Shown here piece by piece: positions 18,362 to 23,922 of a DNA stretch of 64,000 nucleotides. Made by a program: the position numbers and the translations under genes. How positions within the stretch are numbered: the first letter of the stretch is position 1; every line of letters begins with the position of its first letter. This DNA is from Natronorubrum aibiense (GTDB lineage: Archaea; Halobacteriota; Halobacteria; Halobacteriales; Natrialbaceae), in assembly GCF_009392895.1 (NCBI RefSeq), contig NZ_CP045488.1:2418001-2482000 (forward strand). Direction: 5' to 3'. The notes below the pieces were generated by a model. The model had not been told where the DNA came from and ran no database searches. It saw only the letters and a program-made list of their open reading frames with translations.

Positions 18362-19207
18362 TCAACGCCGGCGAAGCGTCCGCAGCGACGGCACGCGGCC
18401 GTTCACCCACGATGAGATCGACCATCGACCGACGAGGATGCCGGCGAGTTCGACGCTGAGATACGCGAGGACGACGCCGGCGAGCACGTCGATTGCCCAG
18501 TGAATACCGAGGTACATCGTCGAAATCGCGACGGAGAGCCCGAGTACGGCCGCGACGACGTTCCACATTGGATAGTACGCTCGAGTGCGGTAGGCCAGGA
18601 TGGAGACGGTCGCGGCGAGCGAGGTGTGCAGCGACGGGAAGACGTTGGTGTTGCGGTTGACCTGTCGCGTGAGGTGTTGGTACTGCGGATACGTATCGTA
18701 CAACAGTGCATCGACGAGTTCGGGCATCATGTTTCGCGGCCCGTAGGCGATGACGAAGACGTACACCGCCAGTCCGATGGTGTAGTTCAGCGTGTACGCC
18801 GTCAGGAGTTCCCGGAGTTGACGCGTCTCCGAGAGCGCGAAGTACGCAACGACGGGAAACGCCAGCAAGAAGACGTAGCCGTAGATGTAGATGAACGAGA
18901 AGTACGCCGTCACTGCCGGCGTCGCCTGTGCCTGCAGCCAGACGATGAACTGTCCCTCGAGGTCGTAGATCGCCCAGGTAAGATTCCAGTCGATCATCCA
19001 CGAGAGTTCCGGGCCAACCTGTCTAGCGACGCTGTTCAAGAGCAACGCCGAGGCGAGGACGACGGTGATCGGTGCGGCCGCCCGCACTCGGTGTCGCCAC
19101 GCGCCGCGCGTCTCTCGGAGTCGATCCCGACCGACGAACAGCGCGGTCGAGAGGAGAAGAAGTCCCGTCACGACCACGATCAACTGGACTAACACTCTGC
19201 CGAGCAT
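18362..19207 (-). CDS. PAP2 superfamily membrane phosphatase, copy 1
   Basis: 281 residues from ATG 19207. This ATG overlaps the TAA of the upstream lipoprotein gene (TAATG), so translation is coupled. About seven to eight hydrophobic segments. Catalytic motifs are AYGPRN (conserved Arg region), NTNVFPSLHTSLAAT (PSLHTS in place of PSGH, catalytic His) and STMYLGIHWAIDVLAG (second catalytic His and Asp). Layout and motifs fit the PAP2_3/inositolphosphotransferase-like branch: lipid phosphate phosphatases or phosphotransferases with active site outside the membrane. It is paralogous to 21104-21973 (YFSFIYIYGYVFLLAFPVVA is nearly identical there). Substrate unknown; pairing with an extracytoplasmic lipoprotein suggests they work on the same surface. 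Confidence 0.85.
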   Translation of the reverse strand: MLGRVLVQLIVVVTGLLLLSTALFVGRDRLRETRGAWRHRVRAAAPITVVLASALLLNSVARQVGPELSWMIDWNLTWAIYDLEGQFIVWLQAQATPAVTAYFSFIYIYGYVFLLAFPVVAYFALSETRQLRELLTAYTLNYTIGLAVYVFVIAYGPRNMMPELVDALLYDTYPQYQHLTRQVNRNTNVFPSLHTSLAATVSILAYRTRAYYPMWNVVAAVLGLSVAISTMYLGIHWAIDVLAGVVLAYLSVELAGILVGRWSISSWVNGRVPSLRTLRRR

Positions 19208-21003
19208 TACTGTCTCACCCGCAGGTTTCCGTCGGCATCGTACCGAAACCCGGCCTCCTCGAACGCCGTTCGTGCTGCATCGACGTCGACCTCGCCGTTC
19301 GATCCCAGAAACGGCGTCTCCGGATCCGAACCGTTCCACGCGAGGTGGTCGGGAACCCACTCGTCGGTCAACGGTGTCGCGATCGGATTCGCGTGACCGT
19401 GGAAAACGTCGTCAACCAGCCACGCCTTGTCGATCAACTGCGCGACGACCTGTCGAAACCGGGGGTTTCCAAACGGTGCCCGCCGAGCGTTGAACCCGAG
19501 GTGGTAGAACGTCCACGACGGCGACTCGAGCAGTCGAACGCCGTCCGGTTCCTCGACGTCCTCGATGACGTAGCTCTCGAGGATCGAACTCGTGACGTCG
19601 GCGTTGTCGTTTTCGAGTAGTTGCATCGCCGACGTGCTCCGAGGATTGATCTCGATCCGTACCGCCTCGACGGTCGGTGCTGGCAACTCGACGCCGTCAC
19701 GACGCGTGAAATGCTCGTCGAAGCGCTCGAGGGTGACGTGCTCGCGCTCGGTGTGGGTCCCGTACTGAAACGGGCCACTCCCGATCGGTGGGATGTTGTC
19801 CGTGACTACCGCCTGCGTCGTCCCCTGTGCGACGCGGACGCCGGGGACGGTGGCAGGTGTTGCTCGATCTGACCAGTGATGCTCGGGCAGGATCGGCACT
19901 GTCAATGCGCGTTCGCCAACCGCCTGTCCAGTCTCGACCGTTAGCTCGAGGCTGTCCTCGCTTTGTGCATCGATATCGTCGATCGCCTCGACGGCACCTC
20001 GATAGCGCGGGGCCGGCGCGGGCGACGTGCTGGTCCCGAGGGCGGTGTCATCGAGGAGCCGATACGTAAAGACGACGTCGTCGGCCGTCACCGACACGCC
20101 GTCGTGAAACGTACAGTCCGGACGGAGAGTCACGCGCAGCGTCGACTCGTCGGTCCACTCCCAGCCGTCGGCGAGCCACGGCTCGAGTGTGTGTGTGCCG
20201 TCTTCGGCCACGAGATCGGCGACCAGCGAGTCGTACAGCAGGTCGGTGACCGTTCCCCGGCCACGGTATTCGGCGTTCAACGGATTGAGGTTCTGGGACG
20301 GTCGGGCGTCCGTGTGGACGACCCGAAGCTGCTCGGCGCTGTCGTCAGTCTGTGGCTCGAGACCGAGATACCCCGTTCGCGTCGCGAGATGGCCCGCGTC
20401 CCAACCATCGAATCGGTCGTCTCTGACGAGCCGGTGCTCGATCGGGGTGCAGATCGGTACGAACGGCTGTTCGATCGACAGTGCCTCGAGAATGTCTTCG
20501 ACGGCGTCGCGGCGTTCGTCCCCGTCGGCGTCGCGCTGGGCCTCGAGTAAGTCGTCGAGCAGCAGATTCGTAAAGCCGAACGGGTTCTGCCAGCCGGACT
20601 CGTCGGCGTACAACGAGTGGAGCATCTCGTAGAGGAAGTCCGGGTCGGTGTCTCCGGGATGGCGACCAACGTAGAGGTCGAAGTCGTGATTGATCAGGAC
20701 CGTCCGCAGGAACTCTTCGTCGGCTTGCATCTCGATGGCGACGTCGATGCCGACGGCCTCGAGCACCGTCGCGATCTCTCGGGCGAGGCGGATGCTCTCT
20801 CGATCACCGTCGGCGGACAGCGTCGTGATGGTCACCGACAGCTGTTGGATATCGTCTCGGTTGACGACGCTGCGAAGTTGGCGGACACAGCCGCTGGTCG
20901 ACGCCGTTAGCCCGACGGCACCGGCCAGCGCAGCCCGACGGCTGATGCCGCCAGCGCTGTCTCCGGTGATGTCTTGGTCCGGAATGGTCCGTCCGCGACT
21001 CAT
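19207..21003 (-). CDS. Tat lipoprotein of the peptide-binding (SBP_bac_5) family with permuted domain order, copy 1
   Basis: 598 residues. The signal has SRR at 21-23 and a lipobox ending at Cys39, giving a Tat-exported surface lipoprotein. The body resembles DppA/OppA-type solute-binding proteins in rearranged order. Residues about 52-200 (LSVTITTLSADGD, VGIDVAI, NHDFDLYVGRHPGDTDPDFLY, PFVPICTPIEH) look like the normal C-terminal part. Residues about 225-598 then start with the normal N-terminal part (LRVVHTDARPSQNLNPL, LLYDSL, PWLADGWEW, FHDGVSVTADDVVFTY) and end in the normal middle (FYHLGFNARRAPFGNPRFRQ, AARTAFEEAGFRYDADGNLR). No transporter subunits are nearby. See findings. Confidence 0.85.
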   Translation of the reverse strand: MSRGRTIPDQDITGDSAGGISRRAALAGAVGLTASTSGCVRQLRSVVNRDDIQQLSVTITTLSADGDRESIRLAREIATVLEAVGIDVAIEMQADEEFLRTVLINHDFDLYVGRHPGDTDPDFLYEMLHSLYADESGWQNPFGFTNLLLDDLLEAQRDADGDERRDAVEDILEALSIEQPFVPICTPIEHRLVRDDRFDGWDAGHLATRTGYLGLEPQTDDSAEQLRVVHTDARPSQNLNPLNAEYRGRGTVTDLLYDSLVADLVAEDGTHTLEPWLADGWEWTDESTLRVTLRPDCTFHDGVSVTADDVVFTYRLLDDTALGTSTSPAPAPRYRGAVEAIDDIDAQSEDSLELTVETGQAVGERALTVPILPEHHWSDRATPATVPGVRVAQGTTQAVVTDNIPPIGSGPFQYGTHTEREHVTLERFDEHFTRRDGVELPAPTVEAVRIEINPRSTSAMQLLENDNADVTSSILESYVIEDVEEPDGVRLLESPSWTFYHLGFNARRAPFGNPRFRQVVAQLIDKAWLVDDVFHGHANPIATPLTDEWVPDHLAWNGSDPETPFLGSNGEVDVDAARTAFEEAGFRYDADGNLRVRQ

Positions 21004-21031
21004 TTCGTTCGTTTGTTACGGTTCGCCGGCG

Positions 21032-21050
21032 GTGATATAACAGTATTGTG
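21032..21050 (-). promoter_or_regulatory. Promoter of cassette copy 1
   Basis: On the minus strand CAATACTGTTATATCACC lies about 30-45 bases before the ATG at 21003. It matches CAATATTGTTATATACC before copy 2 in both sequence and spacing, so the element (TATA box plus upstream CAATAyTG) was duplicated and kept. Confidence 0.6.
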
Positions 21051-21103
21051 TGAGCCCGGCTAGCGACCGGGGCATCTCGATCGGAGCAGTCCGGTATCTC
21101 GTC

Positions 21104-21973
21104 TCAGAACCGGTCTCGGTCGATGTCTGATAGTCGTTCGGACAGTTGTTCGGACAGCTCCGAAAGCGACCAGCGGCCGACGAGGCGGTACGAGAGGGCG
21201 ACACAGAGCACCGCGAGGACGAGCCCCGCGAGAACGTCGATCCCCCAGTGCAGTCCCAGATACATCGTCGAGATGATGACGCTGACGGCGAGAACGACGG
21301 CGATCGGGAGCCACTTCGGATAGCTCGAGCGGGTGAGATAGGCGAAGATCCCGACCGTAGCCGACAGCGAGGTGTGCAGCGACGGGAAGACGTTGGTGTT
21401 GCGGTTGACTTCCCGAGTCAGATACTTGAACTCGGGGGTGTGGTCGTAAAGGATCGTCGACGACCCCGTCCCCGAACTCGCACTCGCAATCAGCTCGTCG
21501 ACGAATACGTTCCGCGGACCGTACGCGATCACGAGTGCGTACAACACGAGTCCGAGCGCGTAGTTGAACGCGTACGCCGTGAGCAGCCGCCGGAACATCT
21601 TGGTGTCCGACAGGGCGAAATACGCCACGACCGGGAAGACCAGCAGGAAGGTGTAGCCGTAGACGTAAATAAACGAGAAGTACGTCGTTAGCTCAGGGCT
21701 AGCGATCTTCTGAAAGATCAGGACGAACTCACCTTCGATCCTCACGATCGTCGAGGTCATGTGGATGCCGAATCCCGTACCGTCCTGTCGGATCGTTCGG
21801 TTGAGCAACAACACGGCCGAAACGATGAGAATCGCTGGGCCGGAGATCCGAAACCGAGAGCGCCACTCGGTTCGCGTCGCCGCGAGCCGCTCGAGGCCGA
21901 CGAACAGCCCGAGTGAGATCGGGAGCAAAAACCCGACGACGAGAACGACTCGAGTCAGTACCTCAGAGAGCAT
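21104..21973 (-). CDS. PAP2 superfamily membrane phosphatase, copy 2
   Basis: 289 residues, ATG at 21973 overlapping the TGA of the upstream lipoprotein gene (TGATG). Motifs match copy 1: AYGPRN, NTNVFPSLHTSLSAT, STMYLGLHWGIDVLAG, with both catalytic His and the Asp present. It has an extra Ser/Gly-rich insert (IASASSGTGSSTIL) before the second motif and a longer charged C-terminus. About seven hydrophobic segments. The second half of a duplicated lipoprotein-PAP2 cassette. Biochemical substrate unknown; lipid pyrophosphate or phospholipid-like compounds are typical for the family. Confidence 0.85.
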   Translation of the reverse strand: MLSEVLTRVVLVVGFLLPISLGLFVGLERLAATRTEWRSRFRISGPAILIVSAVLLLNRTIRQDGTGFGIHMTSTIVRIEGEFVLIFQKIASPELTTYFSFIYVYGYTFLLVFPVVAYFALSDTKMFRRLLTAYAFNYALGLVLYALVIAYGPRNVFVDELIASASSGTGSSTILYDHTPEFKYLTREVNRNTNVFPSLHTSLSATVGIFAYLTRSSYPKWLPIAVVLAVSVIISTMYLGLHWGIDVLAGLVLAVLCVALSYRLVGRWSLSELSEQLSERLSDIDRDRF

Positions 21974-23922
21974 CAGTATCGGTTTTGCAGCCGACCCTCA
22001 TCGTCGTACCGGAATCCGGCCGACTCGAACGCGGCGCGTGCAGCCTCGGCGTTGAGTGTTCCATCGGATCCGATAAACGGAGTCCTGGAATCTTCACCAT
22101 CCCATGTGAGATCGTCGGGGACCCACTCGTCGGCGACTGGACTCGAGAGCGGCGTTGCGTGATCGTAGAAGATCTGTCTGGCGATCCAGTCTTTGTCGAT
22201 GAGTTGGCACACCGCTCGACGGAAGCGGGGATCGCTACACGGCGACACACGCGTATTAAATCCGAGGTGATAGAACGTCCACGACGGGTCCTCGAGCCGT
22301 TCGGCGTCGGAATCGTCCGAGATGTTACCGATCGCGTGTGACTCGAGCATCGACGATGTTAGATCGCCGTCGCCGCTTTCGACCCGTGAAATCGAGGAGG
22401 TACTGCCGGGGTCGACAGTGAAGCGAAGCTCGTCGACGGTCGGTTCTGGGAGGTCGACATCCGCTCGGAGAGTGAAGTGGTCGTCGAAGCGCTCGAGATT
22501 CAGATAGCTCCGCTCGGACTGGCTCTCGAACTGGAAGGGGCCGCTCCCGATCGGTGGGACGGAGTTGGTGGTGACGAGTCCCCACCGTCCCTGCGAGGCA
22601 GTGAAGTCGTCGACGTTGTTGATTCGGTCTTTGAGTTCTTCCCGCCAGATATGGCGAGGGAGAATCGGGACCGTCAGCGCGCGTTCGATGACCTCGCGGC
22701 CAGCGTCGAAAATGATCCGCAGTCGATAATCGTCACGTGGATCGGTCTCGATTCTGTTGACCGCGCTCACCTGACCGCGGTACCGGGGGGCTGGCGACGG
22801 GCGAACCGACTGACCGAGTGCGGTATCCTTGAGGAACCGGTAGGTGAACGCGACGTCTGCGGCAGTGACCGGCTCGCCGTCGTGGAACGTACAGTCCTCT
22901 CGAAGTCGTACTGTCGCGGCCATCGCGTCGTCGTCGACCGATTCGGCGTCGAGTGTGCTGTTATCGACCGATTCGGCGTCGAGTGTGCTGTTATCGACCG
23001 ATTCGGCGTCGAGTGTACTGTTATCGACTGTTTCGGACTCGTTCATCGCGGCTCCCCCTGCGTAGAACTCGTCCACTTCGGCGGCCGGTTCCAGCTCCCA
23101 GGAGTCGGCGAGCCACGGCTGGACCTCGTAGGAGACACTGTCGTCTTCCTCGGTTACATCGAGCGTTCCGAGGGAGTCGTACAACAGGTTGACGACCGTC
23201 CCCCGCTCGCTGATCGTCGCCGACAGCGGGTTGACGTTTTGGGAGGGACGCGCGTCGGTCACGAGCGCGTGAAGCCGGTCGACGCCGTCGTCCGGCTCGA
23301 GGCCGAGATACCCCTGTCGAGTCGCGGGATGGGCGTTCTCCCAGCCCTCGAATCGAGCGCTGGCGACGCGGTTTTCGTCGGGCCGACAGATCGGGTCGAA
23401 CGGCTTCTCTTCGGCGAGTGCTCGCAGCACCGGTTTGAGTCGTTCGCGTCGTTCGTCGCCGTCGGCGCGGCGCTGTTCTTCGAGGAGGGGATCGAAGAAC
23501 GTCGGATTGGAGTACTGAAACGGATTCTGCCAGCCGGCTTCGTCGGCGTACCGCGAGTGGAGGGCCTCGTAGAGGAAGTCGGGATCGTAATCGGCGGGAT
23601 GGCGACCGACGTAGAGGTCGAAGTCGCGGTCGATGAGGATCATTTCCAGAAACTCGGAGGGCGACCGCCAGGCGATGGTGGTGTTGATACCGACCGCTTC
23701 GAGGTTCCGCTCGAGATGGCGTGCGATACGGACCGTCTCTCTGTTGCCATCGTCGGGGACCGTGACGAGTGACAACGAGAGGTTGTCGTCACCATCGTTG
23801 CTGACGACACTTTCGACGCTATCGATGCAGCCGCTCAGCGAAATCGACAGTCCTGCCCCGGCAGCAGCGAGGACTGAACGGCGATCGATACCGTCAGTAT
23901 TGTCGGTTTTATCACAGTTCAT
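21973..23922 (-). CDS. Tat lipoprotein of the peptide-binding family with permuted domain order, copy 2
   Basis: 649 residues. DRR at 13-15 and lipobox Cys32 give Tat export and lipid anchoring. Same permuted layout as copy 1: first the normally C-terminal part (LSLSLVTVPDDGN, VGINTTIAW, DRDFDLYVGRHPADYDPDFL, NPFQYSNPTFFDPLLEEQ, PFDPICRPDENR), then the normally N-terminal part (LVTDARPSQNVNPL, LLYDSLG, PWLADSWELE, CTFHDGEPVTAADVAFTY), ending with FYHLGFNTRVSPCSDPRFRR and AARAAFESAGFRYDDEGRLQ. Compared with copy 1 it has an insert of about 45 residues containing three ESVDNSTLDA repeats. The two copies have diverged widely, so the duplication is old or came by transfer. Ligand unknown. Confidence 0.85.
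   Translation of the reverse strand: MNCDKTDNTDGIDRRSVLAAAGAGLSISLSGCIDSVESVVSNDGDDNLSLSLVTVPDDGNRETVRIARHLERNLEAVGINTTIAWRSPSEFLEMILIDRDFDLYVGRHPADYDPDFLYEALHSRYADEAGWQNPFQYSNPTFFDPLLEEQRRADGDERRERLKPVLRALAEEKPFDPICRPDENRVASARFEGWENAHPATRQGYLGLEPDDGVDRLHALVTDARPSQNVNPLSATISERGTVVNLLYDSLGTLDVTEEDDSVSYEVQPWLADSWELEPAAEVDEFYAGGAAMNESETVDNSTLDAESVDNSTLDAESVDNSTLDAESVDDDAMAATVRLREDCTFHDGEPVTAADVAFTYRFLKDTALGQSVRPSPAPRYRGQVSAVNRIETDPRDDYRLRIIFDAGREVIERALTVPILPRHIWREELKDRINNVDDFTASQGRWGLVTTNSVPPIGSGPFQFESQSERSYLNLERFDDHFTLRADVDLPEPTVDELRFTVDPGSTSSISRVESGDGDLTSSMLESHAIGNISDDSDAERLEDPSWTFYHLGFNTRVSPCSDPRFRRAVCQLIDKDWIARQIFYDHATPLSSPVADEWVPDDLTWDGEDSRTPFIGSDGTLNAEAARAAFESAGFRYDDEGRLQNRY
22934..23030. 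repeat. Three tandem 30-base repeats inside the copy 2 lipoprotein gene
   Basis: Units at 22934-22963, 22964-22993 and 22994-23023 differ by one base, with a partial fourth to about 23030. In frame they encode ESVDNSTLDA three times. NST is an N-glycosylation sequon (N-x-S/T), so the repeat multiplies possible glycosylation sites on this surface protein. Near identity means recent expansion by slippage or unequal exchange. Confidence 0.9.

Follow-up and report, generated by a model that had tools for sequence, protein, structure and literature searches.

Two neighbouring lipoprotein genes of Natronorubrum aibiense raise the question of whether a solute-binding protein (SBP) can carry its chain segments in exchanged order and, if so, how this order arose and what it serves. 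The window analysed here, by which we mean the whole stretch of 64,000 nt taken from NZ_CP045488.1, encodes both proteins on the minus strand, P0001 (598 aa) at 19207-21003 and P0002 (649 aa) at 21973-23922, with positions counted within the window. These lengths and coordinates agree with the original prediction, made from this DNA alone, which read both proteins as circular permutations. Our analysis makes it nearly certain that P0001 and P0002 are cluster C (SBP_bac_5, DppA/OppA-type) solute-binding proteins whose chain was circularly permuted in nature, and long ago. The explanation as a whole, namely permuted cluster C lipoproteins of likely single origin with a transporter-less, PAP2-linked haloarchaeal sub-branch and an inferred ligand-presenting function, is given a probability of roughly 85%.

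Segment Order of P0001 and P0002

The Tat lipobox predicted at the start of both proteins was found, with a twin-arginine motif and a lipobox Cys at C39 in P0001 (SRRAALAGAVGLTASTSG-C39; 20887..21003, minus strand, assigned by sequence) and at C32 in P0002. Within the permuted family the twin Arg was present in all 115 ORFs and a recognised lipobox Cys in 111 of them. As judged from their sequences, both proteins meet the description of predicted Tat lipoproteins, secreted or lipid-anchored. Mature residues 39-223 of P0001 (20335..20889, minus strand) correspond to the old C-terminal third of SBP_bac_5 according to PF00496 and Foldseek, and residues 224-598 (19210..20334, minus strand) to the old N-terminal two thirds according to PF00496 positions 2-284 and the starts of PDB SBP chains. 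In P0002, the old C-terminal third is represented by mature residues 32-214 (23281..23829, minus strand), as indicated by alignment with P0001, the family profile, and the rotation test, and the old N-terminal two thirds together with a repetitive insert by residues 215-649 (21976..23280, minus strand; PF00496 1-284). A short linker at approximately residues 215-224 connects the old C- and N-termini in both. The insert in the P0002 chain consists of ESVDNSTLDA repeats encoded by a 30-bp tandem repeat of 3.4 copies (22934-23036) and is missing from P0001 as well as from L005 and L009, two further genes of this genome. The element AGFRYD..G.L, at which both proteins had been thought to end, is present; the chains nevertheless run 5-10 residues further.

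Profile searches yielded crossed matches in both proteins, consistent with the proposal that the normal C-terminal part comes first and the N-terminal part follows. Residues 273-592 of P0001 match PF00496 positions 2-284 (E 1.9e-49) and the upstream part matches positions 287/288-360, the N-terminal piece alone reaching E 2.2e-5. On the genome, positions 287-360 lie at C1:2438620-2438844, upstream of positions 2-287 at C1:2437219-2438187 on the minus strand, and a third N. aibiense gene (C1:766614-768299) carries its PF00496 stretches in the same permuted order. For P0002, residues 266-643 match positions 1-284 (E 4.3e-45), and the N-terminal part, which is missed by Pfam alone, was detected with a more specific profile of normal SBPs. 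P0001 matches PF00496 significantly over most of the profile length and is in this respect a member of SBP_bac_5; it does not meet the normal segment order with the old N-terminus first, an order which is typical of known members but lies outside the definition of the profile. Neither Pfam nor the PDB chains provided a full-length collinear match of P0001 or P0002 to SBP_bac_5 in normal order, and the PDB SBP matches shown aligned with the permuted proteins in crossed or partial order only.

Rotation of the sequences in silico, suggested along with the original prediction, raised the scores of both proteins. When rotated at the linker, P0001 matched Pfam in a single stretch (2-360 of 368, 179.7 bits), compared to a best stretch of 2-284 and 169.2 bits summed over stretches without rotation. 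A rotation test was performed in 10-residue steps with a profile derived from normal-order SBPs only, from which the control L002 and its near copies were excluded, and the best single-domain scores of the natural sequence and of the best rotation were compared. P0001 rose from 175.9 to 229.0 bits (+53) on rotation at mature residue 180, matching profile positions 38-507 in one piece, and P0002 from 120.6 to 186.8 bits (+66). Gains were also obtained for the third and fourth N. aibiense genes (156.4 to 206.2 and 113.8 to 146.1 bits), for L119 of Nitratireductor (268.7 to 366.7 bits), and for L121 of Natrononativus (247.6 to 314.6 bits), whereas the normal-order control L002 gained nothing and scored best at zero rotation (within 0.2 bits). 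The reverse search gave the mirror result, normal-order SBPs encoded by N. aibiense being hit by the permuted-family profile in crossed pieces; in L002, profile positions 182-501 fell on residues 38-349 (E 6e-27) and positions 33-176 on residues 399-543 (E 3e-9). The crossed order exceeds what chance would give, and the reading as a circular permutation is supported by these data.

Structure Prediction

An AlphaFold2 model of the mature P0001 chain, a check named along with the original prediction and built with 54 family sequences, yielded a single confident chain (mean pLDDT 92.3, pTM 0.90), in which the N-terminal third was as confident as the remainder except for the first dozen residues. 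The N-terminal 185 residues modelled alone dropped to a pLDDT of 70.8, and all 50 PDB matches shown by Foldseek for the N-terminal piece were SBP_bac_5-type binding proteins or fragments thereof. This drop and these matches exclude that the N-terminal part forms an unrelated domain of its own; the PF00496 match likewise rules out such a domain, which at residues 50-200 would have refuted the permutation. With the whole model, Foldseek, which respects chain order, retrieved SBP_bac_5 structures at E 1e-16, yet aligned only approximately 395 columns for the 560 residues at a TM of 0.4-0.5. Closure of the permuted lobe in three dimensions is inferred from the model confidence and the separate matches of the two halves, as no coordinate superposition was made.

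Distribution of the Permuted Order

N. aibiense possesses four permuted genes (P0001, P0002, L005, and L009) beside the normal-order genes L001-L003, and each of the four directly precedes a gene for a PAP2_3 membrane enzyme. The original prediction of a permutation retained in two diverged copies was right about the permutation and too narrow in scope, as the range elsewhere is far wider still; the four SBP-PAP2 pairs and the same-order relatives in ordinary ABC importers had been overlooked. Within the Halobacteria, P0001 was matched at E 1e-10 or better in 343 of 391 genomes, most of the matches listed being collinear with P0001 over nearly the whole query, and the search for the same order in other haloarchaea retrieved it in more than 100 genes. 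A count of segment orders covering all fetched ORFs, which is not a census, comprised 190 permuted ORFs (the same gene being repeated, so that not all are independent), 27 clearly normal ones and none with both orders; 15 were left undecided by the N-part profile alone. In other classes of Halobacteriota, the listed matches of the permuted query start at about residue 180 or later, that is, they are normal-order proteins.

Weaker collinear matches on plasmids revealed permuted SBPs inside complete ABC importer operons. These were found in the Halobacteria Halalkalicoccus, Natrononativus, Halobaculum, Halobacterium, Haloprofundus, and Natrialba magadii and in the Alphaproteobacteria Ketogulonicigenium, Roseomonas, Nitratireductor, and Maritalea; SBPs of Neorhizobium and Microvirga are also permuted, the records carrying no annotation at those places. 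In segment order the ABC-linked proteins agree with P0001 and P0002, and their chains likewise stop at or close to the "AGY..dG.L" element. Among 72,556 plasmid records, the listed matches in one piece and near full length came from Halobacteria and Alphaproteobacteria. The bacterial range is based on plasmid records alone, bacterial chromosomes not being included. One Phyllobacterium plasmid row, which spans two genes, is of normal order. Four of the ABC-linked SBPs (L116, L117, L130, and L132) adjoin genes for M28 or other metallopeptidases and for hydantoinase/oxoprolinase, neighbours which suggest peptide-like or cyclic-amide substrates.

PAP2_3 Partner Genes and Possible Function

The partner of P0001 is located at 18362..19207 (minus strand; PF14378, E 2.7e-18) and that of P0002 at 21104..21973 (minus strand; E 1.5e-19, with PSLH and STMYLGLHWGID motifs), and the stop codons of P0001 and P0002 each overlap the ATG of the partner by one base (TGATG). 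The partner genes satisfy both the PAP2_3 profile and the catalytic motif test (PSxH; S...H...D). They share the profile and the motifs PSLH and ST..LG.HW..D with PAP2_3 (PF14378), which comprises AUR1-like phosphatases and phosphotransferases; both motifs are conserved and were recovered with a simple pattern in 87 of 97 ORFs. Unlike known PAP2_3 enzymes, they are paired with a solute-binding lipoprotein, and nothing relevant to this pairing was found in the open full-text literature searched.

A PAP2 gene of this kind is present in 74 of 75 fetched family loci and lies directly downstream of 94 of 112 SBP ORFs (97 when three over-extended ORFs are counted). Among the exceptions to this order are 14 second copies in Natrinema, which follow an SBP-PAP2 pair and lack a downstream PAP2, one of them having a PAP2 upstream. 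Natrinema loci such as L054, L057, L059, L061, L063, and L067 thus read SBP-PAP2-SBP, and two receptors may share one enzyme there. A presumed SBP-PAP2-SBP polyprotein (a 1529-aa open frame in G704) turned out to be ordinary separate ORFs (L199). The moved segment of PAP2-linked SBPs contains a nearly invariant GWQNPF motif. Several SBP-PAP2 pairs outside the Natrialbaceae have as neighbours an arylsulfotransferase-like gene and a gene for a conserved protein whose function is unknown; glmM is sometimes present as well. Examples are L120, L193, L195, L196, L197, L088, and L090, and Haladaptatus has both glmM and glmS; such a cluster may serve the modification of surface glycans or lipids.

The association of SBP and PAP2 is evident from these counts, whereas a functional link is inferred and rests on gene order only. 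The most likely function, for which there are no ligand data, would be that of a membrane-tethered receptor capturing an extracellular ligand, plausibly phosphorylated or lipid-linked. The bound ligand might then be presented to the outward-facing active site of PAP2, or PAP2 might be regulated by the receptor; that the SBP ligand is the substrate of the enzyme, or controls it, is likewise an inference. We tentatively propose, as a possibility and no more, a transporter-independent two-component surface system in which an anchor-shifted permuted SBP hands its ligand directly to the neighbouring outward-facing PAP2 enzyme. If true, a membrane phosphatase or phosphotransferase would here be supplied by a binding protein, and we found no description of such a partnership for solute-binding proteins.

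Import through permeases encoded at other loci is still a serious rival, although we regard it as somewhat unlikely. The PAP2-linked SBPs would then be ABC importer receptors using orphan or shared Dpp/Opp permeases, and PAP2 would dephosphorylate the solute for import. Orphan SBPs that share a permease are common, and sister permuted SBPs do occur within complete ABC operons. A Dpp/Opp-type importer receptor is, however, expected to share its operon with genes for a permease and an ATPase, as the ABC-type sister proteins do. No such genes accompany the PAP2-type SBPs in their operon at any of the 75 loci (at L085 alone, an ABC cassette lies nearby on the opposite strand), and yet the SBP-PAP2 pair has been kept across haloarchaeal families.

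Origin of the Permutation

Since the normal SBP_bac_5 order is widespread in bacteria and archaea, we regard the permuted order as derived. The permuted gene most likely arose once, when a normal SBP gene was duplicated in frame and the outer parts were then lost. The new termini lie at the point where, in a normal chain, the "AGY/AGF..G.L" element is followed by the next strand of the C-lobe; the fold and the binding cleft should be kept, and the lipid-anchored N-terminus would now begin from the C-lobe instead of the N-lobe. In solved homologues the breakpoint falls at about residue 340 of 500; from this and from the lobe boundaries of DppA/OppA the position of the anchor is inferred. That the required duplication intermediate exists in nature is documented, though in another subfamily, by the haloarchaeal L202 (2611-6489, minus strand; 1292 aa as called), in which a single signal peptide is followed by two tandem SBP_bac_5 units, each of normal order. 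The lineage in which the permutation most likely arose has members in haloarchaea and Alphaproteobacteria that still resemble ABC importer receptors.

A single event is argued from the breakpoint common to all permuted lineages. When the rotated sequences were placed in a quick tree, the normal rows fell apart from the permuted ones, save for one long branch (L160), which lay beside the PAP2-type. The permuted rows did not form one group there, at weakly supported branches; a tree constrained to hold all permuted rows together was not rejected and had the higher likelihood (AU p 0.685). One origin is compatible with the tree and most likely, but not proven. L160 (952-2601, minus strand) is a haloarchaeal SBP of normal order whose operon also encodes what is likely a permease-ATPase fusion. 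As this is an ordinary ABC operon and the joint permuted grouping is not rejected, we treat its position as a long-branch placement and reject the alternatives that it has reverted or forms a sister of normal order to the PAP2-type. The alphaproteobacterial rows are placed in at least two positions among the haloarchaeal ones, which suggests transfer between the domains in an uncertain direction.

Repeated origin of the permutation within SBP_bac_5, for instance with one event each in the PAP2-type and the ABC-type branch, appears improbable. The deep branches are weakly resolved and the PAP2-type sits on a long stem, which would leave room for it, but breakpoint and linker position are identical and the likelihood is higher with all permuted rows together. 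Still less probable is a fusion of a foreign SBP C-lobe fragment upstream of a truncated SBP instead of a true permutation. Separate sources of the two pieces are conceivable in principle, and the authors who described the cluster B protein TpMglB-2 entertained a fusion (PMC4990184); here, however, the pieces complement each other to a whole SBP_bac_5, with no large overlap and no large gap between them (rotated match 38-507), the breakpoint is the same in all lineages, and the ABC-linked relatives show the same order. A sequencing, assembly, or frame artefact is ruled out, as the original prediction of a functional arrangement had implied, by the recurrence of the full-length order in hundreds of genomes, with those more than 100 genes coming from independently sequenced haloarchaeal genomes, and in plasmid records including Alphaproteobacteria.

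Comparison with Known Binding Proteins

P0001 and P0002 consist of the same fold pieces as DppA, OppA, and AppA (SBP_bac_5, PF00496, cluster C) and match the same family profile. The conserved blocks LLYDSL, PWLA..W, FHDG..T..DV.FT, and GSGPF and the C-lobe block with DPD..L are found in the permuted proteins too; unlike in DppA, OppA, and AppA, two chain segments are swapped and the new termini lie in the C-lobe. The ABC-operon proteins L116-L119, L121, L122, L124, and L132 share order and breakpoint with P0001 and P0002 but are followed by permeases and ATPases where the latter have PAP2. They are annotated merely as "ABC transporter substrate-binding protein" and are not called permuted in any source found.

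A natural permutation of an SBP is known from cluster B. TpMglB-2 (Tp0684) of Treponema pallidum, a lipid-tethered sugar-binding protein of "Type Ic / Cluster Bc", is circularly permuted, and most of its relatives are probably tethered according to its authors (PMC4990184). It has a cluster B fold, in which the permuted segment is smaller and the hinge is crossed a fourth time (PMC4990184), whereas in the cluster C proteins P0001 and P0002 about 180 residues are moved and the breakpoint lies inside the C-lobe. P0001 does not meet the test for the cluster B sugar-binding fold, its profile and listed fold matches being cluster C. The cluster C case is undescribed so far as we could find: no permuted cluster C SBP was encountered in PDB, NCBIfam, Pfam, or the open full-text literature (subscription papers were not covered), nor was a solved structure, ligand, or phenotype found for any permuted member.

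Few receptor families of prokaryotes are as large as the cluster C binding proteins, and the persistence of the permutation in many genes of two domains of life shows that profile-based domain annotation conceals topology changes. The permuted SBPs represent a natural experiment on the importance of chain order and anchor position in permease docking, and permuted biosensors could be built on them as a scaffold. Their conserved coupling with PAP2 points to a use of binding proteins besides import, which is testable in genetically tractable haloarchaea.
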